Assembly (NCBI GenBank): GCA_007118855.1
Contig: SKQU01000218.1
Location: 1-33,027 of the forward strand
Reading direction: 5' to 3'
DNA: 33,027 bases
Source of the DNA: Spirochaetaceae bacterium
Lineage (GTDB): Bacteria; Spirochaetota; Spirochaetia; DSM-27196; SLST01
This document shows, in pieces, positions 12,337 to 26,976 of this stretch. The position numbers were made by a program, and so were the translations under genes. The notes beneath the pieces were generated by a model that was given only the letters and a program-made list of their open reading frames with translations, had not been told where the DNA came from and did no database searches. Positions within the stretch are counted from its first letter, which is position 1, and every line of letters starts with the position of its first letter.

Positions 12337-14013
12337 GTGTCTGAACCGCTGAATCGTCGCAGCCGCGCCATGACCGAAGGTGTCTCGCGCACGGCGAACC
12401 GGGCCATGCTGCGTGCCGTGGGGTTCACCGACGATGACTTCACCAAGGCGATCGTCGGCATCGCAAGCGCCGACAGCGATGTGAGCCCGTGCAACGTGCA
12501 CCTGGGACACCTTGCGAAACAGGCATCCGACCACCTGCGCTCGCTCGAGATGATGCCCATGACCTTTCACACTTTCGTCGTCACCGACGGCGAGGCGATG
12601 GGTCACGAGGGCATGAAGGCTTCACTCGTAAGCCGTGAGACGATCGCCGACGTGATCGAGCTCGCTGCTCGCGGCCACGCGATGGACGGTCTGCTCGGCC
12701 TCGGCGGGTGCGACAAGACGATCCCCGGCACGGTCATGGGCATGGCCCGCATGGACGTGCCTTCCGTCTTCGTCTACGGGGGGACGATACGCGCCGGCAA
12801 CTACCGCGGAAACCCCGTTGACATCGTGAGCGCCTTCGAGGCCGTGGGCGCGTTCAGCGCAGGGAGGATCAGCGAACAGGAGCGCCACGGCATCGAGTGC
12901 GCTGCATGCCCGGGAGCCGGTGCGTGCGGGGGGATGTATACCGCGAACACCATGGCCGCGGCGATGGAGGCGATCGGCATGAGCGTCACTGGGAGCGCCT
13001 CGGTGCCGGCCGTCTCCCGCGAACGTCCGGCTGTCATCCGGCGGAGTGCCGAGGCGCTCGCGCTGATGGTGCGCCGGAACGTCATCCCGCGTCAGATCAT
13101 GACCAGAGCGGCGTTCGAGAACGCGATCCGGGTCGTGATGGCGGTCGGCGGATCGACGAACGCCGTGCTCCACCTCCTCGCGCTCGCGCATGAGGTGGAC
13201 GTCGATCTGTCAATCGACGACTTCAACCGTTTCAGCGACACCACGCCCATTCTCTGCGACATGAAACCGGCAGGGCGCTACGTGATGGAGAATCTCCACG
13301 AGGTTGGCGGGATCCCCCTCGTGATGCGCATACTGCTCGACGAGGGCCTGCTTCACGGTGATTGCCTGACGGTGACCGGCCGTACCATCGCGGAGAATCT
13401 GGATGGCGTGACGGTCGATCTGAGCGACCAGGATGTCGTTCATCCCATGGACCGAACCGAAAAACCCACCGGACCCATCGTGGTCCTCAAGGGGAACCTC
13501 GCCGGTGAAGGCGCCGTCCTCAAGACCTGCGGCCTGCAGGAAGTGGCGCACCGCGGCCCCGCACGCGTCTTCGACGCCGAAGAAGCGGCGATGGCGGCTA
13601 TCCTCGAAGGGACCGTCAGCGCCGGCGACGTCGTGGTCATACGCTACGAGGGTCCGAAAGGCGGACCCGGCATGCGCGAGATGCTCGGCCCCACCTCCGC
13701 GATCGCCGGGGCCGGCCTCCTGAACGAAGTCGCCCTGATCACCGACGGTCGTTTCTCCGGCGGAAGCCACGGCATGGTCGTGGGACACGTTGCCCCCGAG
13801 GCACAGGTGGGAGGCCCGATCGCGCTCCTTCGAGACGGAGACGTGATCCGGATCGACAGCCGTGAGAAGTCTCTGCACGTCGAGGTGTCCGACGATGAGC
13901 TCTCCATGCGCCGCGAGCAGTGGCAGCCGCCACAACCGGTCCACACTCGCGGGGCGCTTGCGAAGTTTGCACGGCTCGCCTCGTCAGCGAGTACCGGAGC
14001 CGTGACGAGCTGA
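12337..14013 (+). CDS. ilvD: Dihydroxyacid dehydratase
   Basis: Dehydrates 2,3-dihydroxyacids to the 2-keto acids that precede valine and isoleucine. The 558 residues include three cysteines that can bind an Fe-S cluster: Cys52 (SDVSPCN), Cys125 (GLGGCDKTIPG) and Cys197 (ACPGAGACGGMYTANTM); this three-cysteine arrangement is that of [2Fe-2S]-type enzymes. GRFSGGSHG near the C-terminus is also conserved. It starts at a GTG with GGAGG upstream. Last gene of the operon; its 3' end overlaps the convergent GH13 gene by 30 bp. ilvC, needed between IlvBN and IlvD, is not in this window. Confidence 0.97.
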   Translation: MSEPLNRRSRAMTEGVSRTANRAMLRAVGFTDDDFTKAIVGIASADSDVSPCNVHLGHLAKQASDHLRSLEMMPMTFHTFVVTDGEAMGHEGMKASLVSRETIADVIELAARGHAMDGLLGLGGCDKTIPGTVMGMARMDVPSVFVYGGTIRAGNYRGNPVDIVSAFEAVGAFSAGRISEQERHGIECAACPGAGACGGMYTANTMAAAMEAIGMSVTGSASVPAVSRERPAVIRRSAEALALMVRRNVIPRQIMTRAAFENAIRVVMAVGGSTNAVLHLLALAHEVDVDLSIDDFNRFSDTTPILCDMKPAGRYVMENLHEVGGIPLVMRILLDEGLLHGDCLTVTGRTIAENLDGVTVDLSDQDVVHPMDRTEKPTGPIVVLKGNLAGEGAVLKTCGLQEVAHRGPARVFDAEEAAMAAILEGTVSAGDVVVIRYEGPKGGPGMREMLGPTSAIAGAGLLNEVALITDGRFSGGSHGMVVGHVAPEAQVGGPIALLRDGDVIRIDSREKSLHVEVSDDELSMRREQWQPPQPVHTRGALAKFARLASSASTGAVTS

Positions 14014-15696
14014 CGCTTCGGCGTTCGCGGGCCCCTCTGCCGAGACCAGGCGCGCCTCGTACGGACGAAGCGGCGCCTCAGGTCGGGCCTCGGGAGCATC
14101 GCCGTGCGTCGACAGAAGGATCCGTGCGGAGGCGGCCGGGATTCCCGCCGGCGGAGCCGGACGCTCACGCCCTGAGAAGTTGAGCATCACGATGACCTGC
14201 CGCTCTTCGTGCGCGCGCGTGTAGACGAGTAGTTTCCGGTGAGTACCGACAAAGGAAATCGAGCCGTGCGTCAGTTCGCAGCGCTTCCTTCGCACCTCGA
14301 TGAGACGCCGGTACCAGTTCAGGAGCGAATCAGGGTCGGCCTCCCCTGCCTCAACGTTCACACCACCGGCCTTGCCGGACCCCGCGTAGTCCGTGTTGAG
14401 CGGCAGCCAGGGATCGACGTCCGGAGGACAGAAACCGGCATTGGGGCCCGAGTTCCACTGCATGGGCGTGCGCGAGCGGTCGCGGCCGGTGAAGAACGGC
14501 CAGTACTTGCGGCCCGTCGGATCGCGAAGCGAATCCCGCCGCAGCTTCCCGTCGCGCATGCCGATCTCTTCTCCGTAGTAGAGAAAGGGGGTCCCACGCT
14601 GGGTGAGCAGCAGCGCAGCGAGTACCCGCGCCTTCGCGAGCGAACCGCGGCACCGTCGCGTCATCGCCCGCGGCTTGTCGTGGTTGCTGAGCACGTGAGT
14701 CGGCCAGCCGTCGGGAGGGATCGCGGAGTACCAGCGCTCGAGGGTCCTGCGGTAGGCTCGTCCGGTGAACCGGGTCTCCATCAGCGAAAAGTCGAAGGCG
14801 AGATGGAGCTCGTCGCTGCCGTTGCCGAGATAACTCGCGCTCGCTTCCGGCTCCATGCGCCCCTCGTTCGGGTAGACCTCCCCCACGAGCATGGTCTCAG
14901 AATACCTGTCCATGAGGGCGCGAAACCGTCTCAGAATCTCGTGCGCCTCCGGTTGGTTGCGATCGTAGCGGTGGAGCTGCTGATCATGGCGGCGAGGAAA
15001 GGTCCATCGCAGGTGGTACGGGTTGTTCCGAAGCTGCCGGTCCTTGACGATGTAGTTGATCACGTCGAGTCGGAATCCGTCGACCCCACGGTCGAGCCAG
15101 AAGCGTGCCTGTTCGAACATAGCTCGTTCGGTGTCGCGATTGCGCCAGTTGAGATCGGGTTGCGACTCGAGGAAGAGGTGCAGGTAGTACTCGTCTGAGG
15201 ACTCATCGAGTGTCCATGCGCTTCCGCCGAAGGCGGCGCGCCAGTTGTTGGGCGGCCGACGGCAGATCCGCCACGGGAGCCCCGCCAACCTGCGACCCCC
15301 ATGCCACAGGTACCAGTCTCGCCTCGGCGAGTCCTTCGAGGCTCGTGACTCGATGAACCAGGGGTGTTCATCACTCGTATGGTTGAAGACCAGGTCAAGG
15401 ATGATCCGGATGCCAAGGCGGTGCGACCGGTCGACCAGCTCGTCGAAATCGTCGAGAGAGCCGAACAGCGGGTGAATCGCGCAGTAATCGCGTACGTCGT
15501 AGCCGAAGTCGCGCATGGGCGAATCGAAGATCGGCGAGAGCCACAACCCGTCGATACCGAGGTCGGCAAGGTACGGCAGGCGCGAGAAGAGGCCGCGCAG
15601 ATCCCCGGTACCATCGCCCGAGGAGTCTGCGAAGCTGCGGGGGTAGATCTGGTAGAGCACGCCGTGTTTCCACCAGTGGTAGTGTCGAGCCGTCAC
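13984..15696 (-). CDS. GH13 alpha-glucosidase (oligo-1,6-glucosidase/maltase type)
   Basis: A 570-residue glycoside hydrolase of family 13 acting on alpha-glucosides such as isomaltose, maltose or sucrose-like substrates. The (beta/alpha)8 barrel motifs are in order: YQIYPRSFADSSGDGTGDLRG, LDLVFNHTSDEH, nucleophile Asp211 in GFRLDVIN, acid/base Glu273 in LVGEVYP, and Asp340 in LSNHDKPR; TPMQWN follows. No signal peptide is seen, so it is probably cytoplasmic. It starts at a GTG overlapping the transporter stop (GTGA), suggesting uptake and hydrolysis of the same sugar. Substrate bond type cannot be fixed from sequence alone. Confidence 0.93.
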   Translation of the reverse strand: MTARHYHWWKHGVLYQIYPRSFADSSGDGTGDLRGLFSRLPYLADLGIDGLWLSPIFDSPMRDFGYDVRDYCAIHPLFGSLDDFDELVDRSHRLGIRIILDLVFNHTSDEHPWFIESRASKDSPRRDWYLWHGGRRLAGLPWRICRRPPNNWRAAFGGSAWTLDESSDEYYLHLFLESQPDLNWRNRDTERAMFEQARFWLDRGVDGFRLDVINYIVKDRQLRNNPYHLRWTFPRRHDQQLHRYDRNQPEAHEILRRFRALMDRYSETMLVGEVYPNEGRMEPEASASYLGNGSDELHLAFDFSLMETRFTGRAYRRTLERWYSAIPPDGWPTHVLSNHDKPRAMTRRCRGSLAKARVLAALLLTQRGTPFLYYGEEIGMRDGKLRRDSLRDPTGRKYWPFFTGRDRSRTPMQWNSGPNAGFCPPDVDPWLPLNTDYAGSGKAGGVNVEAGEADPDSLLNWYRRLIEVRRKRCELTHGSISFVGTHRKLLVYTRAHEERQVIVMLNFSGRERPAPPAGIPAASARILLSTHGDAPEARPEAPLRPYEARLVSAEGPANAEASARHGSGTR

Positions 15697-17072
15697 GCGC
15701 GCGGCCCGTCCGACCCGCGGATATCGGCGAGCTCCTTCTGGATGTCCGCCTGCGGGTACCTCAGGAAGATCAGAAAGCCTATCAGGACGAAGGCTGCGCC
15801 CACCGGACCGACGAGCTCCACACCGAGCGGCTGCGCCGCGTCACGCCCGAAGAACCCCAGCAGCCCGGCGGTGATCGCGAGCGCAAGACCGTAGTTCACC
15901 TTCATGAACAGCCCCTGCGTACCAAAGAACATGGCCTCGCGATTCTGTCCGCTGCGGTGCCCGTCGATTTCGCTCAGATCAGAGACCGCGGCATTGGGAA
16001 CCACAAGCAGGATCGCGATGGGAAAGCCCATGAGCCCCATCTGGATCAGAGCCCCCGTGGATGCGTAGGCGCCAAGGCGCCTGATGACGATCGTCAGACT
16101 CATCAGCACTGCGAAACTGAGCATGCCGGTCAGCATGAGCTGCTTGTGAGAGTATCGTCTTGCGAGCGTGGGTACGAGCAGGAAGACGAGCACGGCCACA
16201 CCAAAGAGCGTTGCCATGAGCATGCTCTGGAACTCCGGCGACTCGCCGAGCAGCACGATCGGATAGTAGGCGATCACGGCCCGCACCATGTTGAAGCCGA
16301 ACCAGTAGAGGATCGTGCCGCCCATGTAGCGAATGAACCAGGGATTTCGCACCGTCTTGCGCAGCGACTCGATCAGACCGACCTGAGAGCTTCTGCTTCC
16401 GGAAAACCGACGCTCGTCCACCACCAGTCCTGACAGCAGCATCGACACGGCAGCAAGCAGGCACAGCACGAGCACCGCCCCGCGAAAGCCGGAGGCAGGT
16501 TCAAGTCCGGCGGCGCGAAACGCCTCCCAGGCGATGGGAAATCCGAGCAGAACCACGCCCGCCCCGCCGATGCTGAACGCCGCCTGGGTGACGGTGATCT
16601 TTATACGCTCCGCGACGGTCCGACTGAGCTCCGGGATCAGAGCAAGATTCGGCGCCATGTAGTAGGTATAGAGGAAGAAGAAGATGCCGAGGACGATCGC
16701 CGTGTACCAGGCGTTCAGGCTCGTCGTATACGGGTCGGGCTGGAAGAACAGCAGCGCCCCGGCGATCGCGAACGGGACCGCGCCGGTGACGAGGAAGAAC
16801 TTCCGCCGCCCCAGGCGAAACCGCGCGTTATCGCTCCACCACGCCACGAGCGGATCGGCAAGCGAATCGACGACTCGCCCGAAGATATTGATCAGGCCTA
16901 TGACCGTGATACCGAGCAGGAGCGGCCGGTTGTCGACCAGATCGGGCATCCCGATCTCCTCCGGAGGGATGAGGAAGAACAGCAGGTACGCCCCATAGAT
17001 GTTGTCGAGGATGGAAAACCCGAAGTGCCCGTTCGCGTAGAGAACGCGTCTGGAGGTGGGAAACCGTTCCAT
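15693..17072 (-). CDS. GPH/MFS-type sugar:cation symporter
   Basis: A 459-residue inner-membrane transporter with about 12 hydrophobic segments. It carries the GPH (MelB-like) signature early in the chain: RVVDSLADPLVAWWSDNARFRLGRRKFFL, in which Asp residues of helix II bind the coupling cation in MelB. A second hallmark, SDLSEIDGHRSGQNREAMFFGTQGLFMK, is typical of GPH symporters. It is co-transcribed with the GH13 alpha-glucosidase, so an alpha-glucoside is the likely cargo. The ATG at 17072 is chosen because a well-formed promoter ends 6 nt upstream and would lie inside the longer in-frame extension to 17168. Confidence 0.88.
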   Translation of the reverse strand: MERFPTSRRVLYANGHFGFSILDNIYGAYLLFFLIPPEEIGMPDLVDNRPLLLGITVIGLINIFGRVVDSLADPLVAWWSDNARFRLGRRKFFLVTGAVPFAIAGALLFFQPDPYTTSLNAWYTAIVLGIFFFLYTYYMAPNLALIPELSRTVAERIKITVTQAAFSIGGAGVVLLGFPIAWEAFRAAGLEPASGFRGAVLVLCLLAAVSMLLSGLVVDERRFSGSRSSQVGLIESLRKTVRNPWFIRYMGGTILYWFGFNMVRAVIAYYPIVLLGESPEFQSMLMATLFGVAVLVFLLVPTLARRYSHKQLMLTGMLSFAVLMSLTIVIRRLGAYASTGALIQMGLMGFPIAILLVVPNAAVSDLSEIDGHRSGQNREAMFFGTQGLFMKVNYGLALAITAGLLGFFGRDAAQPLGVELVGPVGAAFVLIGFLIFLRYPQADIQKELADIRGSDGPRA

Positions 17073-17078
17073 CTGCGC

Positions 17079-17107
17079 AGTGTACGCCCGACGATCGGGA
17101 ACCGCAA
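17079..17107 (-). promoter_or_regulatory. Promoter of transporter/GH13 operon, leaderless type
   Basis: Minus strand: TTGCGG (17107-17102), 17-bp spacer, TACACT (17084-17079), GCGCAG, then ATG at 17072. The expected +1 is at the start codon and no Shine-Dalgarno site is present. Confidence 0.65.
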
Positions 17108-17161
17108 GCGCACGATCTGGAAGAAAAGCTGCTTTTCTCGCGGCAAGGCCCATTTCGCCGC

Positions 17162-17197
17162 TTGTCAACCGCTTGCGAAAGAGCGCACAATGCGCTC
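17162..17197 (+). promoter_or_regulatory. Promoter with palindromic operator for the lipoprotein gene
   Basis: TTGTCA (17162-17167), 18-bp spacer, CACAAT (17186-17191). A perfect 6-bp inverted repeat, GAGCGC (17181-17186) and GCGCTC (17192-17197), brackets the -10 box, so a dimeric repressor bound there would block the promoter. The leader to 17278 is about 80 nt long and has a second palindrome, CTCCGC-GCGGAG, at 17210-17221. Confidence 0.5.
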
Positions 17198-17940: not shown

Positions 17941-17969
17941 GAAAAAGCCCGACGGCGAGCCGTCGGGCT
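17941..17969 (-). terminator. Intrinsic terminator after tRNA-Val / che operon
   Basis: A 10-bp perfect stem (17960-17969 with 17946-17955), 4-nt loop, followed on the minus strand by a TTTTT run (17945-17941). It lies 5 bp past the tRNA 3' end and would end both the tRNA transcript and any read-through from the che operon. Confidence 0.85.
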
Positions 17970-17974
17970 GATGA

Positions 17975-18048
17975 TGGGCGGTATTGGATTCGAACCAACG
18001 ACCCCTTGCGTGTCGAGCAAGTGCTCTAACCAACTGAGCTAACCGCCC
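17975..18048 (-). tRNA. tRNA-Val(GAC) with C33
   Basis: A full cloverleaf on the minus strand: acceptor GGGCGGT/ACCGCCC (7 bp), D stem GCTC/GAGC, anticodon stem CTTGC/GCAAG, variable loop GGGTC, T arm GTTGG-TTCGAAT-CCAAT (one G-U pair), discriminator A. The anticodon loop is TCGACAC, so the anticodon is GAC (18014-18012) for valine. Position 33, almost always U, is C (from the g at 18015). The CCA end is not encoded. Reading the anticodon as CGA would need a stem that does not pair. Its own promoter lies inside the end of cheY. Confidence 0.92.
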
Positions 18049-18058
18049 GTGCGGACCA

Positions 18059-18087
18059 AATGTACCCGATTACTTGAGCGACATCAA
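18059..18087 (-). promoter_or_regulatory. tRNA-Val promoter inside cheY
   Basis: Minus strand: TTGATG (18087-18082), 17-bp spacer, TACATT (18064-18059). The expected start, near 18052, is about 4 nt before the mature tRNA 5' end. The -35 box lies within the last codons of cheY. Confidence 0.6.
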
Positions 18088-18504
18088 GATCCGCTCCAGC
18101 ACTTTCTTGCGGTCCAGCGGCTTCACGATGTAGTTCTTCGCGCCCATGAGCAGCGATCTCTTGACGAGATCCTGTTTGCCGAGCGCGCTGACCATGATCA
18201 CCCGTGCGTTGCGGTCGAACTCGATGATCTGCTCGAGCGCAGACACCCCGTCGAGCTTCGGCATCGTGATGTCCATGGTCACAAGGTCGACGTTCGGGTA
18301 GAGCTCCTTGTACTTCTGGACCCCCTCCTCGCCGTCACCGGCGGTCCCGGCTACCTCGAACCCCTCCGAGGTGAGGATCTGACTCAGTTGCTTCGCGACG
18401 AACATGCTGTCGTCCACGATCAGCACACGGTAGGGCGTGCCATCTTCCTTGAGTCCGTCGGCCGGTCGCTCGTTTATACTCGGAAAATCCTGCTTCGCCT
18501 TCAT
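18070..18504 (-). CDS. cheY: Chemotaxis response regulator CheY
   Basis: A single receiver domain, 144 residues, which carries the signal from CheA to the flagellar switch. The acidic pocket is Asp31-Asp32 (LIVDDSMF), the phospho-acceptor is Asp78 (LVTMDITMP), and Ser106 (MVSALG) and Lys128 (YIVKPL) complete the site. An extra N-terminal segment of about 24 residues (MKAKQDFPSINERPADGLKE) precedes the domain, as in spirochaete CheY proteins encoded next to CheX. The ATG overlaps the cheX stop (TGATG). Last gene of the che operon. Confidence 0.95.
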   Translation of the reverse strand: MKAKQDFPSINERPADGLKEDGTPYRVLIVDDSMFVAKQLSQILTSEGFEVAGTAGDGEEGVQKYKELYPNVDLVTMDITMPKLDGVSALEQIIEFDRNARVIMVSALGKQDLVKRSLLMGAKNYIVKPLDRKKVLERILMSLK

Positions 18505-18980
18505 CAGCCTCGCTCCCGTATCGCTACGTTGATCTCTATCTTGCCCTGAGGCAGCTCCATCGGTACGATGAGCGCCTCCACGTTGGCATTGGATATCTCC
18601 ATGTTATCACCGGTGACGAGCGCCGGCGGGGTCAGATCGAAGGCAAAACCCAGGTTGTGCAACTTTGTGACCGCCCGGCCCGTTATCATGTTTGCCAGCT
18701 CGGTGATCGTCGCTCGCCCCATCTCGTTGAGTTCCGAGATGGGCTCCATGTCCATACCCGCGAGCATTGCTGAGGCGACCTGTATCGCGGTCGTCCGGCT
18801 CATGTCGAGCAGAACCCGTCCTTCAACGTCGCCGGCGAGCCCGATGATCGCCGCAACCCCGAGCACGGGCGTCGCTGAGGACTTCAGATAGAGCTCACCG
18901 CGCTTCACGTCGGTCTGAAGCACTTCCTTCAGAACGTCATGAGCCGCTTCGACAAACGGATTGATGTATTCAACGCGCAC
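18504..18980 (-). CDS. cheX: CheY-P phosphatase CheX
   Basis: A 158-residue CheC/CheX-family protein that dephosphorylates CheY-P; spirochaetes use CheX in place of CheZ. The phosphatase motif ExxN is visible in ATITELANMITGRAVTKL (Glu and Asn three apart). The start RVEYINPFVEAAHDVLKEVL is characteristic of CheX. It follows the CheW/CheR-like fusion by 12 bp and overlaps cheY by 1 nt. Confidence 0.94.
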   Translation of the reverse strand: MRVEYINPFVEAAHDVLKEVLQTDVKRGELYLKSSATPVLGVAAIIGLAGDVEGRVLLDMSRTTAIQVASAMLAGMDMEPISELNEMGRATITELANMITGRAVTKLHNLGFAFDLTPPALVTGDNMEISNANVEALIVPMELPQGKIEINVAIRERG

Positions 18981-18992
18981 GCGTACCCTCCG

Positions 18993-20330
18993 TCATGCCT
19001 GTCTGAACGCCCGTACCACGCCCCGAGACACCTCGACGCAGCCGGACAGTTGATCGAGGTCTTCGTGTGACCCGGTCACGATGAGCGTGGCGGGTCCGGT
19101 CTGCTCTTCGATCATGGAAACCACCCGCCGCTGATCCTCCTCCGGAAGAAACGAAAGGACATCCCGGATGACAATGAGATCGCACGGCGGAAGCTTCTGC
19201 ACGTGTCTCAGGTCGCTGAACTCGAACAGCACGATCTCCCGGACATCCGCCCGGAAGGCGTGCATGTCGTCGGTCTCGACGGTGAACGGCTCATAGAACC
19301 GGGGAACCCGCGCCGGATCGAGGGTCAGGCCGGGAGCCATGGAGACGCCGAGCAGATCGGTGTCGGCCGCCCATACCTTGACCCTCGCGTCGGGATAGCT
19401 CGCCCGAAGCAGGCAGGCAATCGAGTAACTCTCATGCCCGTTCGCGCATCCGGGGTTCCACGCGTGGACGTTCCCGCCCGCCTCGGGCGGAAGCAGCGTC
19501 CTGACGGTGTCCAGGTAGTCGGCATCCCACAACCTGCCGGTATACGGTGAGTAGAACGGCCGAAGAAACTCCTCCACCTCGGCATCGGTCGTGATCTCCA
19601 CTGTCCCGCCATGGGCATCGCTCCAGGAGCGAAGCCGCTGAGTGACCCATGCGCGGTTCAGGTCCGTCATCACGAATCCGCTCAGTGACCGAAGCGTCGC
19701 GGCGACGAGTTCCGCGGTCTCACCCGGCCCCGCAGCCGCGTCGGCCTCGACACGGGGCCCGGAGAGAGGCCCCGGCGGTGTATCCGGCGGCTCTTCCGGC
19801 GGAGGCACCGGCGCCTCTCCGAGAATACGTTCCATGTCGAGGATGATGTAGAGCCGTGACTGGTGCTCCACTACCCCGCTGATCGACCGGAGGTTGACAT
19901 CGGCGAAGATCGGATGCGGCGGCTGGATGAGCCGGGACGGGATGCCGACGACCTCGTCGATCCGGTCGACGATGACGCCGATCAGGCCACCATCGAGACG
20001 CAGTATCAACCCCTCCTCGGGCTCGCCGGACGTTTGCTGCGGCACCGGAAGGTTGAACAGTACTCGCATGTCGATCAGCGAGATGATGTCGCCGCGCAGA
20101 TTGTAGACCCCGGAGACGAAGGCGGGCGTGTTCGGGACGCAGGTGTAGCGGTCGTATCTGGCGATCTCAGCGACCTTCATGATGTCCACGCCGTAGTCCT
20201 TCCCGCCGAGCGAGAAGGTGACCATCCTGTAGTCGATCTCCTCCCGCTCTTCAGTCTCGTCCGGCCCGGCAGCGGCGAACAGCCCGCTGTACCGGTCGAA
20301 GGCCCGACGCGGCTCCTCGTGCTTCGTCAT
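18993..20330 (-). CDS. cheW: CheW fused to a CheR-like domain
   Basis: A 445-residue fusion. Residues about 33-175 form a CheW domain (VTFSLGGKDYGVDIMKVAEI, VPNTPAFVSGVYNLRGDIISLIDMR, GVIVDRIDEVVGI), which couples receptors to CheA. A Pro-rich linker (about 173-193) leads to a CheR-like methyltransferase domain (about 205-445). There the SAM loop reads NPGCANGHESYS instead of the usual GCxTGEEPYS, and DLIVIRDVLSF replaces DLIFCRNVLIYF, so His and Asp stand at usually conserved Glu and Asn positions; methyltransferase activity is doubtful. Such hybrids are known in spirochaetes, where the CheR-like part has been linked to array structure. The ATG overlaps the cheA stop (ATGA). Confidence 0.92.
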   Translation of the reverse strand: MTKHEEPRRAFDRYSGLFAAAGPDETEEREEIDYRMVTFSLGGKDYGVDIMKVAEIARYDRYTCVPNTPAFVSGVYNLRGDIISLIDMRVLFNLPVPQQTSGEPEEGLILRLDGGLIGVIVDRIDEVVGIPSRLIQPPHPIFADVNLRSISGVVEHQSRLYIILDMERILGEAPVPPPEEPPDTPPGPLSGPRVEADAAAGPGETAELVAATLRSLSGFVMTDLNRAWVTQRLRSWSDAHGGTVEITTDAEVEEFLRPFYSPYTGRLWDADYLDTVRTLLPPEAGGNVHAWNPGCANGHESYSIACLLRASYPDARVKVWAADTDLLGVSMAPGLTLDPARVPRFYEPFTVETDDMHAFRADVREIVLFEFSDLRHVQKLPPCDLIVIRDVLSFLPEEDQRRVVSMIEEQTGPATLIVTGSHEDLDQLSGCVEVSRGVVRAFRQA

Positions 20331-22597
20331 GACCCGATCACCGCTTCACGTTGTCTGCGAACGTCGCGCTCGTGCTTCAGCCCCAGAGCGAGCAGCTGCG
20401 CAACATCGATGATCAGCGAGACCCGCCCGTCGCCGGTGATATTGGCCCCGGCGATCCCGGGAGCGCTCGTGTACCGGTCCCGCAACGGCTTGATGACGAC
20501 ATCCTCCTCCCCGATCAGTGAGTCCACAATCAGACCGACCTTCTTGTCCTCGCTGCCTACGATCACCACGAACAGGTTCTCTCTGGCCTCATCCGTGTCG
20601 ACGCGGAAGATACGGCTGAGGCGCAGGAGACTGACGACATCGTCGCGAACGTTGAGCACCTCCGAATTGTCGAGTCGACGAATCTCGCTCGATCTGATCC
20701 GCTGGCTCTCGAGCACGGACGTGATGGGTATCGCGTACATCTCCTGCCCGACGTTCACCATCAGCCCCTGGATGATCGCGAGCGTCAGCGGAATCCGGAT
20801 CGTGAAGGTCGTGCCGCGATGCAGCCCGGAGCCGACGGTGACGGTACCGCTGAGCTTCTCGATCTGCCGGCGCACGACGTCGAGCCCGACGCCCCGACCG
20901 GATATCGCAGAGACCTCGCGTGCGGTGGAGAAACCTGGATCGAAGATGAGCTTGTAGGCTTCGACATCGCTGAGCGACTTGTCCGGATGGATGACCCCCC
21001 GGTCGACGGCCTTCCGGCGCACCGCGTCGACGTCGATTCCTCGCCCATCGTCGGATACCTCGATGACGATCATACTTCCTTCGCGGCTCGCTCTGAGCAA
21101 GAGATCACCGGTCTCGGGCTTGCCGTGCCGCACGCGTTCGTCGGGAGGCTCGATGCCGTGGTCTATAGAGTTGCGTACGCAGTGTATGAGCGGGTCGAGC
21201 AGATCTTCGATCACGGACTTGTCGAGCTCCGTCTCTTCTCCCTCAACCCGCAGGGCCACATCCTTGTTGAGCGAACGCGTGAGGTCACGCACCAGTCGTG
21301 GAAAACGCGAGAAGATCTGCGAGATCGCAACCATCCGAATCCGCATGACGCCTTCCTGCAGCTCCCCGGTGATCCTTCCAAGGCCCTGCGCGATACCGCG
21401 AAACCTGGCGACGCTCTGGCGATAGGCAGCCCCGGGCTGTTCGAAGTGCCGGTAGAGGTGTCCGAACCGCTCGGTTATCTCGCGTTTGACCTCCCTCGCG
21501 CTCGCTCCGTGCTGCATGCGTTCGAGGTACCGCGGCATCGCATCGAAGAGCTCGCGCAGACTCGAGCGATAGCCCTCCTCGGCTGCCGCGAAGCGGCCGA
21601 GCGCATCGGCGAACTCGCCCTCGAGCTGGTTGAGAGCAGCCTTGTTGATCACCGCCTCACTGACGAGGTTCAGCAAGCTGTCCACGCGCCGGCTGTCTAC
21701 CCGAAGCACCGAACTGCTCGGCGTCGAGGCCCGTCGGGTGCTCGGTGCCGCCGGGCCGGCCTCCGGCCCGGCGGCGATCTCCTCGCGATCGATCTCCTCG
21801 CGATCGATCCCCTCCGGACCCGGGATCTCATCGGCCACAGCCGATACGGTCACCCCGGTCGTCACATCCGGGAGGGTAATCGTCTCTTCGATGGTCTGCG
21901 CCTCCGCCTCAGTGGCGACATAGTAGGTGACCACCGGGTGGAAGTCGTCACTGTAGAGCGCATCGAAGTCGGGGTCGGTCTCGAGAACCGTTCCTATCTC
22001 CTTGAGTGCGGCGAACACCTGGATGCCGCCCACCGAGTTCATGGGATTCGACTCGTCGAAGGACACGCGAACCGCCCTGACGACGCCGGCGTCCGGCCCG
22101 GCGGCCTCGAGAAGCTCGCCGCGAGGCACGCGGTGAGGCACACCATCCTCCTCGTCGCCGGACGCCGGCGTCGCGACCTCAGTCGGAGGCCGCGAAGCAC
22201 CTGCGACACAGTCGCGCAGCCTGCCGGCTACGGAGGCAATGCCGTCGTTCTCGTAGACCTCGCGGTTGGACCGGGCCTCGAGCATTGCCTTGATGACGTC
22301 AACCGCTGCGAGCAGCACGTCAACGAGCTCGCGAGTCACGCTGGAACTCGCCGCTCGTACGTCGTCGAGCACGTCCTCCAGGAGGTGGGTGAACTGGTTG
22401 ATCTCATTCATCTGGACCGTAGCGGAGGCGCCCTTCAACGTATGCGCGGCACGGAAGATCTCATCCAGCGCATCCCTGTTCGAAGAATCGTCCTCGAGCA
22501 CGAGTATACTGCTCTCGAGCAACTCGACCTGGGCCTCGGCCTCGACGTAGAAATCCTGCAGCAGCTCCTCGTTGTTCGGATCGAGGTAGTCGCTCAT
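20327..22597 (-). CDS. cheA: Chemotaxis histidine kinase CheA
   Basis: A 756-residue kinase. Domains in order: P1 HPt with phospho-acceptor His52 (FRAAHTLKGAS); P2-like region about 180-260; an acidic linker with a 15-bp tandem repeat (IDREE twice); P3 dimerisation enlarged by an insertion (about 300-430); P4 kinase with the N box (HCVRNSIDHGIE), G1 (DDGRGID) and G2 (SGRGVGLDVV); P5 CheW-like (about 600-745). The start is set at the ATG at 22597 (SDYLDPNNEELLQ); the in-frame ATG at 22621 lies within the spacer of the promoter. It heads the operon cheA-cheW/R-cheX-cheY and is divergent from an outer-membrane-type gene. Confidence 0.96.
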   Translation of the reverse strand: MSDYLDPNNEELLQDFYVEAEAQVELLESSILVLEDDSSNRDALDEIFRAAHTLKGASATVQMNEINQFTHLLEDVLDDVRAASSSVTRELVDVLLAAVDVIKAMLEARSNREVYENDGIASVAGRLRDCVAGASRPPTEVATPASGDEEDGVPHRVPRGELLEAAGPDAGVVRAVRVSFDESNPMNSVGGIQVFAALKEIGTVLETDPDFDALYSDDFHPVVTYYVATEAEAQTIEETITLPDVTTGVTVSAVADEIPGPEGIDREEIDREEIAAGPEAGPAAPSTRRASTPSSSVLRVDSRRVDSLLNLVSEAVINKAALNQLEGEFADALGRFAAAEEGYRSSLRELFDAMPRYLERMQHGASAREVKREITERFGHLYRHFEQPGAAYRQSVARFRGIAQGLGRITGELQEGVMRIRMVAISQIFSRFPRLVRDLTRSLNKDVALRVEGEETELDKSVIEDLLDPLIHCVRNSIDHGIEPPDERVRHGKPETGDLLLRASREGSMIVIEVSDDGRGIDVDAVRRKAVDRGVIHPDKSLSDVEAYKLIFDPGFSTAREVSAISGRGVGLDVVRRQIEKLSGTVTVGSGLHRGTTFTIRIPLTLAIIQGLMVNVGQEMYAIPITSVLESQRIRSSEIRRLDNSEVLNVRDDVVSLLRLSRIFRVDTDEARENLFVVIVGSEDKKVGLIVDSLIGEEDVVIKPLRDRYTSAPGIAGANITGDGRVSLIIDVAQLLALGLKHERDVRRQREAVIGS
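21776..21805 (-). repeat. 15-bp tandem duplication within cheA
   Basis: Two perfect copies of GATCTCCTCGCGATC (plus-strand reading, 21776-21790 and 21791-21805), each ending in GATC, with a partial third start. They encode a doubled Ile-Asp-Arg-Glu-Glu in the acidic linker between P2 and P3. The length is a multiple of three, so the frame is kept. Confidence 0.85.
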
Positions 22598-22606
22598 CAG
22601 CCCCCA

Positions 22607-22634
22607 ATAGTATTGGCTCATGGCCGGGTGTCAA
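22607..22634 (-). promoter_or_regulatory. cheA operon promoter, nearly leaderless
   Basis: Minus strand: TTGACA (22634-22629, perfect consensus), 16-bp spacer, TACTAT (22612-22607), then 9 nt to the ATG at 22597. The predicted leader is 2-3 nt. This promoter class is sigma-70-like, not the flagellar sigma-28 type. Confidence 0.65.
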
Positions 22635-24764: not shown

Positions 24765-24793
24765 TTGACGGTGCCGGTGTGCCGTGGGACGAT
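24765..24793 (+). promoter_or_regulatory. Possible otsAB promoter
   Basis: TTGACG (24765-24770), 17-bp spacer, weak -10 GACGAT (24788-24793), then 5 nt to the ATG at 24799, with no Shine-Dalgarno site. The spacing fits the leaderless class, but the -10 matches only three of six bases. An imperfect hairpin GTCGG/CCGAC overlaps the stop of the preceding gene. Confidence 0.35.
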
Positions 24794-24798
24794 ACCCC

Positions 24799-26976
24799 AT
24801 GGCCAAGACGATCATCGTGTCCAACAGAATGTCCACCTCCGTCTCACGGGGTGAGAACGGCTTCGAGTTCACACCGAGCGTTGGAGGGCTGGCGACCGGG
24901 CTCTCCTCGCTGCACAAGCAGGAGGAGAGTCTCTGGATAGGCTGGAGCGGACTGCCGTCGGACACCTTGGGTCAGGACGAGCGCACCTCCATCGCAACGA
25001 CGCTCCGCAAGGAGCACAAGAGCATACCGGTGGACCTCTCTACGACTGACCTCGAGTTGTTCTACTACGGCTTCTGCAACAACATCGTATGGCCGCTCTT
25101 CCATTACTTCCCGACCTACGTGACCTACAACGACGAGTACTGGGAGTCCTACCGTGCGGTGAATGAGCGATTCTTCGAGCGGGTGAAACAGTTCCTGGAG
25201 CCGGAGGATATCGTCTGGGTGCACGACTATCAGCTGATGCTGCTGCCGGCGATGGTCAAGGCATACGAACCGCTCGCGCGCGTCGGGTACTTCCTGCACA
25301 TCCCGTTTCCCTCCTACGAGGTGTTCCGGCTCCTGCCCTGGCGTGAGGATATTCTGCGCGGCCTGCTGGGAGCCGACCTCGTCGGTTTTCACACGTACGA
25401 CTACGCGCGTCACTTTCTCTCGAGTGTCCGGAGGCTGCTCGGGTACGATCATGATCTGGCGAACGTGCGATACGAGAACCGGATGGTCCGGGTCGACGTA
25501 TTCCCTATGGGGATCGACTACGAGCGGTATGCAAGCTCGGTGAACCTGCCGGTCGTTCGCGAGAAGATTGCTGAGGTCGACGCCGACCGGCCGGCCGAGC
25601 GCATCATCCTCTCGGTCGACCGGCTCGACTACACGAAGGGGATTCCGCAGCGACTGCGGGCCTACGAGCGTTTTCTGGAACTGAAGCCCCATTACTGCGG
25701 CAAGGTCAGCATGATCATGATCGTCGCTCCGTCGCGAACGGCGGTTCCACAGTACCAGGAGCTCAAGCGCGAGGTGGACGAGCTCGTCAGTGTGATCAAC
25801 GGACGTTTCTCAACGATCGCCTGGACCCCCATCCATTACTTCTACCGTACCTTCCCCTTCGAAGAACTCTGTGCCCTCTACTCGGAGGCCGACGTGCTCC
25901 TGGTGACCGCGCTGCGCGACGGCATGAATCTGATTGCGAAGGAGTTCATCGCTGCCAAAGGAGACACCCCCGGGGTTATCGTCGTCAGCGAGACCGCCGG
26001 CGTCGCCCGCGAGCTCAGCGAGGCGATCATCGTGAACGCGAGCAGCGTTGAGGATATTGCCGTCGGGCTCGCCAGAGCGCTCGAAATGCCGGCGGAAGAG
26101 CAGATGAGACGAAACGAGCGTATGCAGGAACGCCTGCAGAGATATGACATCCACTACTGGTCACACGACTTCGTGACGAAGCTCGAGTCGGCCGTCGAAC
26201 ATCAGCAGACCTACCTCAGCAAGAGGCTCGCCGCCTCTATACGCCGCACCGTCACGAAGGCCTACGCGGCCGCGAAGCGACGGTTGATCCTGCTCGACTA
26301 CGACGGCACGCTTCTGCCGTACATGGACCGGCCGGATCGGGCGGTGCCTGATGACGATCTCAGACGGCTTGTCAGCAGGCTCGCCCTGGACAAGGCAAAC
26401 GACGTCGTGCTGATCAGCAGCCGCGGCAGAGACTTCATGACCGAACACCTCGGCGAGCTCGGGGCGGGGATGATTGCCAGCCACGGCGTGTGGATCAGGC
26501 GCACCGGCGAGTGGGAACAGCTCGTGCCCATCGAGCCGGACTGGAAGGCGGAGCTCGCGCCGATCATGCAGCTGCACGCCGACCGCACCCCGGGAAGCCG
26601 GTTCGAAGAGAAGGAGTACGGTCTCGCGTGGCACTACCAGGGCAGCGAACCCGATCTCGCGTTCATCAGAGTCGCAGAGCTCCGCGACGCACTGCTGAGC
26701 ATGTCTGCGAATCACAATGTCACAGTCTTCGAGGGCAATCGTGTTCTCGAGGTGAAGAGCGCCCTTGCGAGCAAGTCGCAGGCGGCCGCGATCTGGCACG
26801 AGCACGCCGATTACGACTTCATCCTTGCCGCCGGCGACGACCAGACCGACGAGGAGCTGTTTGCGAGCCTCCCCGGGGGGGCGCACTCGATCCGGATCGG
26901 GCTCGGCATGACGAACGCCGCCTACTTCCTGGAGAACCCCGGTGAGCTGCGCGTCTTTCTCAAGGAGATCTCCTGA
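24799..26976 (+). CDS. Bifunctional trehalose-6-phosphate synthase/phosphatase
   Basis: A 725-residue fusion of OtsA and OtsB that would make trehalose from UDP-glucose (or another NDP-glucose) and glucose 6-phosphate in two steps. The GT20 synthase domain (about 1-470) shows IVSNRMS, SVGGLATGL, WVHDYQLMLLP, GYFLHIPFPS, GADLVGFHTYDYARHF, VDRLDYTKGIPQRLRAYERF and ALRDGMNLIAKEF. The HAD phosphatase domain (about 485-725) has LLDYDGTLLPY with nucleophile Asp500 and acid/base Asp502, and GDDQTDEE with Asp680-Asp681. The ATG at 24799 has no Shine-Dalgarno site. It is probably monocistronic. Trehalose would act as an osmolyte or stress protectant. Confidence 0.95.
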   Translation: MAKTIIVSNRMSTSVSRGENGFEFTPSVGGLATGLSSLHKQEESLWIGWSGLPSDTLGQDERTSIATTLRKEHKSIPVDLSTTDLELFYYGFCNNIVWPLFHYFPTYVTYNDEYWESYRAVNERFFERVKQFLEPEDIVWVHDYQLMLLPAMVKAYEPLARVGYFLHIPFPSYEVFRLLPWREDILRGLLGADLVGFHTYDYARHFLSSVRRLLGYDHDLANVRYENRMVRVDVFPMGIDYERYASSVNLPVVREKIAEVDADRPAERIILSVDRLDYTKGIPQRLRAYERFLELKPHYCGKVSMIMIVAPSRTAVPQYQELKREVDELVSVINGRFSTIAWTPIHYFYRTFPFEELCALYSEADVLLVTALRDGMNLIAKEFIAAKGDTPGVIVVSETAGVARELSEAIIVNASSVEDIAVGLARALEMPAEEQMRRNERMQERLQRYDIHYWSHDFVTKLESAVEHQQTYLSKRLAASIRRTVTKAYAAAKRRLILLDYDGTLLPYMDRPDRAVPDDDLRRLVSRLALDKANDVVLISSRGRDFMTEHLGELGAGMIASHGVWIRRTGEWEQLVPIEPDWKAELAPIMQLHADRTPGSRFEEKEYGLAWHYQGSEPDLAFIRVAELRDALLSMSANHNVTVFEGNRVLEVKSALASKSQAAAIWHEHADYDFILAAGDDQTDEELFASLPGGAHSIRIGLGMTNAAYFLENPGELRVFLKEIS

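Follow-up and report, generated by a model that had tools for sequence, protein, structure and literature searches.

A tRNA-Val(GAC) gene with C33 beside a spirochaete chemotaxis cluster, and the recurrence of C33, chiefly in Val(GAC), across bacterial phyla

The window, the whole stretch of 33,027 nucleotides analyzed here, derives from a Spirochaetota MAG and contains a single tRNA detectable with ARAGORN and Rfam RF00005, a complete tRNA-Val(GAC) cloverleaf with the sequence GGGCGGUUAGCUCAGUUGGUUAGAGCACUUGCUCGACACGCAAGGGGUCGUUGGUUCGAAUCCAAUACCGCCCA (Table 1). The RF00005 score of 68.1 bits (E 5.3e-13), against a family cut-off of 29, places the gene within the tRNA family; no 3' CCA is encoded. 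The anticodon stem, CUUGC/GCAAG, is paired at 5/5 positions, and the loop carries C at position 33. U33 is taught as almost invariant and makes the U-turn, so that by this canonical elongator feature the window tRNA falls outside the norm. The identity bases of bacterial tRNA-Val, A35, C36, A73 and G3-C70 (PMC9976931), are all present, and U4-A69 of the same set is missing, the window tRNA having C4-G69, a mismatch that alone is no bar to membership, as the identity set that includes U4-A69 was derived from few model organisms. ARAGORN, RF00005 and the sequence thus confirm the initial annotation in its claim of C33 in a tRNA-Val(GAC) with a five-pair anticodon stem and the loop TCGACAC, and its view that the gene looks functional is upheld by the intact cloverleaf, the score, the terminator and the retention of the gene in the family. 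A tRNA pseudogene was considered and ruled out by the high score, the pairing of all stems, the finding of a sole copy and the conservation in the family.

The tRNA gene lies 21 bases downstream of a cheY-like gene, which closes a run of chemotaxis genes that begins with cheA. The strong terminator that had been proposed for the tRNA is borne out by the stem-loop and the U's after it; a promoter of its own, also proposed, was not found by a sigma-70 scan. Because no such promoter was found and the tRNA lies so close behind the cheY-like gene, read-through from cheA-cheWR-cheX-cheY is likelier, and tRNA-Val(GAC) is probably the final part of the chemotaxis cluster transcript, which the terminator ends. 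The neighborhood of cheA, cheW-cheR, cheX and cheY with a 3'-terminal tRNA-Val(GAC) is common to most class relatives. Sugar-metabolism genes flank the cluster and encode an alpha-amylase-family enzyme, an MFS sugar transporter and a trehalose-phosphate synthase/phosphatase fusion.

Table 1. Features of the tRNA-Val(GAC) locus, in window coordinates
Feature	Position	Strand	Evidence or remark
Sugar-metabolism genes flanking the cluster	13984-17168, 24784-26976		
Intrinsic terminator, 10-bp GC-rich hairpin then U's, directly 3' of the tRNA	about 17969..17946	minus	fold -20.4 kcal/mol, z -3.67
Complete tRNA-Val(GAC) cloverleaf	18048..17975	minus	ARAGORN and Rfam RF00005
Anticodon loop U32 C33 G34 A35 C36 A37 C38 (UCGACAC)	18010..18016	minus	sequence and ARAGORN anticodon position
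C33 replacing U33	18015	minus	g on the plus strand, hence C in the tRNA
cheY-like response regulator gene	18070..18504	minus	PF00072, E 1.7e-25; conserved neighbor across the class
cheX phosphatase gene, upstream of cheY	18504..18980	minus	PF13690, E 4.6e-20
CheW-CheR fusion protein gene	18993..20330	minus	PF01584, PF01739
cheA, first gene of the cluster	20327..22621	minus	Hpt, P2, H-kinase_dim, HATPase_c and CheW domains
Chemotaxis cluster with 3'-terminal tRNA-Val(GAC)	17975-22621	minus	neighborhood common to most class relatives

The possibility that the C33 tRNA is the only Val(GAC), raised by the initial annotation, agrees with the source MAG (3.9 Mb, 439 contigs, 95% complete, so that a gene could be missing), in which no second Val(GAC) was found. 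Its 36 distinct tRNA sequences include one Val(GAC), and the other 35 all have U33, among them the remaining valine tRNAs, Val(UAC) and Val(CAC). Since the MAG could miss a gene, we also read two genomes from this class that are each a single contig: one of 3.78 Mb, from the same order, has one Val(GAC) with the loop UCGACAC and 41 other distinct tRNAs, all U33, and the other, of 4.65 Mb, has one Val(GAC) with this same loop and 47 other distinct tRNAs, again all U33. GTC is the commonest valine codon in eight window genes (159 of 342 valine codons, 46%, or 36.7 per 1000 codons), and with such heavy use a crippled reader of this codon would be costly.

A pattern that allowed C or U at positions 32 and 33 gave matches in 26 of 61 relatives. 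Within the family, C33 is present in every Val(GAC) gene recovered, that of the window genome included (7/7), and in other families of the order and class Val(GAC) has C33 or U33. The findings that had been named as fatal to the C33 call, an error or T33 in all relatives, did not emerge, the family being uniformly C33 and several other families of the order T33. Val(GAC) adjoins cheX-cheY in most relatives, in C33 and U33 forms alike, and this shared neighborhood identifies the two forms as orthologs. The U33 Val(GAC) of related spirochaetes, with the loop UUGACAU, occupies the same locus and shares the anticodon and often the stem; it differs in having U33 with U38, where the window tRNA has C33 with C38. 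On a tree of the CheX and CheY proteins (20 rows), the state at position 33 changes five times by parsimony, and at least three changes are forced by well-supported branches. Position 38 moves with position 33 in 3/3 independent pairs on the class tree (C33 with C38, U33 with U38), too few for significance (sign test p 0.25); over distinct stem-loops the coupling has p 0.0014, ignoring kinship.

Several other forms of valine tRNA were seen in the phylum. AUGACAC loops (A32, C38) are common among the Val(GAC) of part of the class (f24 and related genomes), and other Val(GAC) in the phylum carry G37 (UUGACGU). In two same-phylum genomes it is Val(CAC) that carries C33, with the loop CCCACAC (G085:C1:1753313-1753353 and G073:C32:19641-19681), and the Val(GAC) beside it has U33 with A32 (ATGACAC) in both. 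Many Spirochaetota genomes gave no Val(GAC) match with a loose pattern, a result of either gene loss, with the box then read by Val(UAC), or failure of the pattern to detect the gene.

A scan across phyla, with one genome per species, found at least 117 C33 Val(GAC) loci, isolates among them, in Planctomycetota, Cyanobacteria (Prochlorococcus), Bacteroidota, Campylobacterota, Actinomycetota, Aquificota, Patescibacteria, Bacillota, Chloroflexota, Spirochaetota and others. Among the matches listed, a 5-bp anticodon stem is present in 117/117 of these loci, and the 55 other tRNAs inside them all have U33. In 45 of 46 named genomes the pattern, which limits this figure, found Val(GAC) of the C33 type only; among the matches listed, C33 accounts for 36/150 Val(GAC) in Spirochaetota and 38/58 in Planctomycetota. 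In the Val(GAC) of these two phyla, most C33 loops have C or A at position 38, and most U33 loops have U. The window tRNA has the features of this class, namely the loop YCGACAN, the 5-bp stem, the status of sole Val(GAC) and the occurrence across phyla. At the level of the gene, C33 in Val(GAC) is recurrent and mainly valine-specific in many bacterial phyla, and not the oddity of one genome, a point that the earlier reading had missed.

Two simpler accounts of this distribution were rejected. A strict link of C33 to a G30-C40 pair holds in the Spirochaetota and Planctomycetota samples and is broken elsewhere, where C33 loops sit on C30-G40 stems such as CUACC (Prochlorococcus, Nocardiopsis and Sulfuricurvum), so that kinship accounts for part of it. 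GC drift as the sole cause fails because Prochlorococcus, which is AT-rich, has C33. Two records stand apart: a Nitrospiraceae MAG of 5.3 Mb (G223, locus L092) has three Val(GAC), two with U33 and one with C33, and is possibly a contaminated bin; the Val(GAC) of a record named Bifidobacterium breve MAG (L098) is nearly identical to that of a Microthrixaceae MAG (L108), and its organism label may be wrong.

We searched 880 genomes from six phyla with an anticodon-blind pattern that covers tRNAs with GAGC at 22-25 and a common T-loop; the Cyanobacteria run used looser flanks and gave mostly chance matches (10/14 without a paired stem). The 127 well-paired C33 tRNAs comprise 94 Val(GAC), 4 other Val (98/127 for valine in total), 9 Thr(GGU), 6 Ala(GGC), 6 Met(CAU) and 8 others. 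Position 35 is a purine in 122/127 of them versus 19/39 distinct U33 tRNAs retrieved by this pattern, and with valine left out the contrast is 14:5 for C33 against 11:20 for U33 (p = 0.019, ignoring kinship). The surplus of valine over other purine-35 tRNAs is left unexplained by a purine-35 rule. Absolute specificity of C33 for Val(GAC) was rejected, as the Actinomycetota scan gave Thr(GGU), Ala(GGC), Val(UAC), Met(CAU) and single others. Within that phylum, C33 Thr(GGU), with the loop UCGGUAA, was seen in nine genomes, C33 Ala(GGC) in six genes and C33 Val(UAC) in two. In these genes bacteria depart from U33 repeatedly and with a bias toward certain isoacceptors, which goes beyond the lone oddity first described.

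No description of a bacterial valine C33 class was found in the literature searched, which excludes most subscription papers, and earlier notice is possible. The exceptions to U33 found in that literature are the eukaryotic initiator tRNA, Sulfolobales tRNA-Cys, Candida tRNA-Ser with G33 and bacterial tRNA-ProX with A33. Eukaryotic initiator tRNA-Met (PMC9023262) resembles the window tRNA in combining C33 with A35 in a functional tRNA, but it enters the P site, whereas the window tRNA is a bacterial elongator that must enter the A site. Sulfolobales tRNA-Cys(GCA) (PMC7668247) is likewise a prokaryotic elongator with C33, but it is archaeal, specific for Cys, has a pyrimidine (C) at position 35 and has its C33, not isolated by the authors of that study, paired with a G27-U43. 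The A33 tRNA-ProX (PMC11415595) and the G33 tRNA-Ser(CAG) of Candida (PMC1991585) are also natural non-U33 elongators; unlike the window tRNA, which is standard, sole and cognate, they mistranslate or recode and have further unusual features.

We consider it likely that the window encodes a working tRNA-Val(GAC) with a genuine C33, which reads GUC and GUU, belongs to the recurrent bacterial class and keeps its U-turn partly by means of the purine-35 contact. This reading draws on what was observed of the gene (its integrity, its status as the single copy in the assembly and its conservation), on heavy GTC use, on recurrence, on the coupling with position 38 and on the purine-35 restriction. 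GUU would be read through G34:U wobble. In the U-turn, N3-H of U33 bonds phosphate 36, and this bond would be lost with C33. The 2'-OH of residue 33 also bonds N7 of purine 35 (PMC5372741, PMC9023292), a contact that would remain, as the anticodon has A35, and the turn may be preserved to a degree that allows A-site decoding. Such a mechanism agrees with the purine-35 restriction, since C33 would keep the contact only when position 35 is a purine. A U33-A37 cross-loop pair, prevented in other tRNAs by modified residues at position 37 (PMC5372741), would be abolished by C33, and its loss may help hold the loop open in a tRNA decoding a G-starting codon. Counting against tolerance, yeast tRNA-Gln(CUG) with U33C produces a phenotype linked to decoding (PMC3664417); the anticodon of that tRNA, however, has a pyrimidine at position 35. 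We infer that C33 stays unedited, and the contacts above would provide a structural rationale for its tolerance.

Another hypothesis is that C33 is edited post-transcriptionally to U or pseudouridine by a TrcP-like editor, so that the mature U-turn would be normal. TrcP is a bacterial tRNA C-to-pseudouridine editor that acts one base away, at C32 of Vibrio cholerae tRNA-Tyr, and TrcP-like proteins have a patchy distribution among distant bacteria, including Bacteroides and Synechococcus (PMC9553926). The V. cholerae tRNA shares with the window tRNA a gene-encoded C on the 5' side of the anticodon loop; the sites differ, TrcP acting at position 32 of a tRNA-Tyr, whereas the window tRNA is a Val with its C at 33. 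The loop that editing would create, UUGACAC, exists in gene-encoded form in Planctomycetota. We nevertheless regard editing as unlikely: C33 tracks position 38, which is unexpected if the mature loop equaled that of U33 tRNAs, the spread of the class over many phyla would need an equally scattered editor, and the purine-35 restriction is explained by tolerance instead.

C33 could alternatively mark a slow or partly relaxed tRNA, with Val(UAC) covering much of the GUN box, and be either drifting or kept to tune valine decoding. The genome does also have Val(UAC) and Val(CAC), and the lack of Val(GAC) matches in many Spirochaetota genomes may mean loss; decoding by the Candida tRNA is lowered by G33 (PMC1991585), and GUC reading by tRNA-Ala is altered by 32-38 changes (PMC11415595). 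This explanation appears improbable in view of the rank of GTC as the commonest valine codon in the eight window genes, the intactness of the rest of the tRNA and the stability of C33 within the family, and the repeated, 38-linked switching and purine-35 restriction point to constraint, not decay. Although the MAG that holds the window is fragmented (439 contigs), a sequencing or assembly error is scarcely credible, as the same base is found in six other family genomes, in single-contig genomes and in named isolates.

On balance, we lean toward a broader view in which U33 is not invariant in bacterial elongators, and in which a widespread, Val(GAC)-led class would carry an unedited C33, with position 35 almost always a purine, position 38 changing alongside and U33 and C33 interchanging repeatedly at orthologous loci. 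An almost invariant tRNA base would then be replaceable in working genes. The paired natural C33 and U33 orthologs, from culturable and uncultured bacteria, make it possible to test directly which U-turn contacts are needed for decoding, and the same set lets the existence of an undescribed tRNA editor be tested. They also carry a warning that C33 tRNAs should not be thrown out as pseudogenes.
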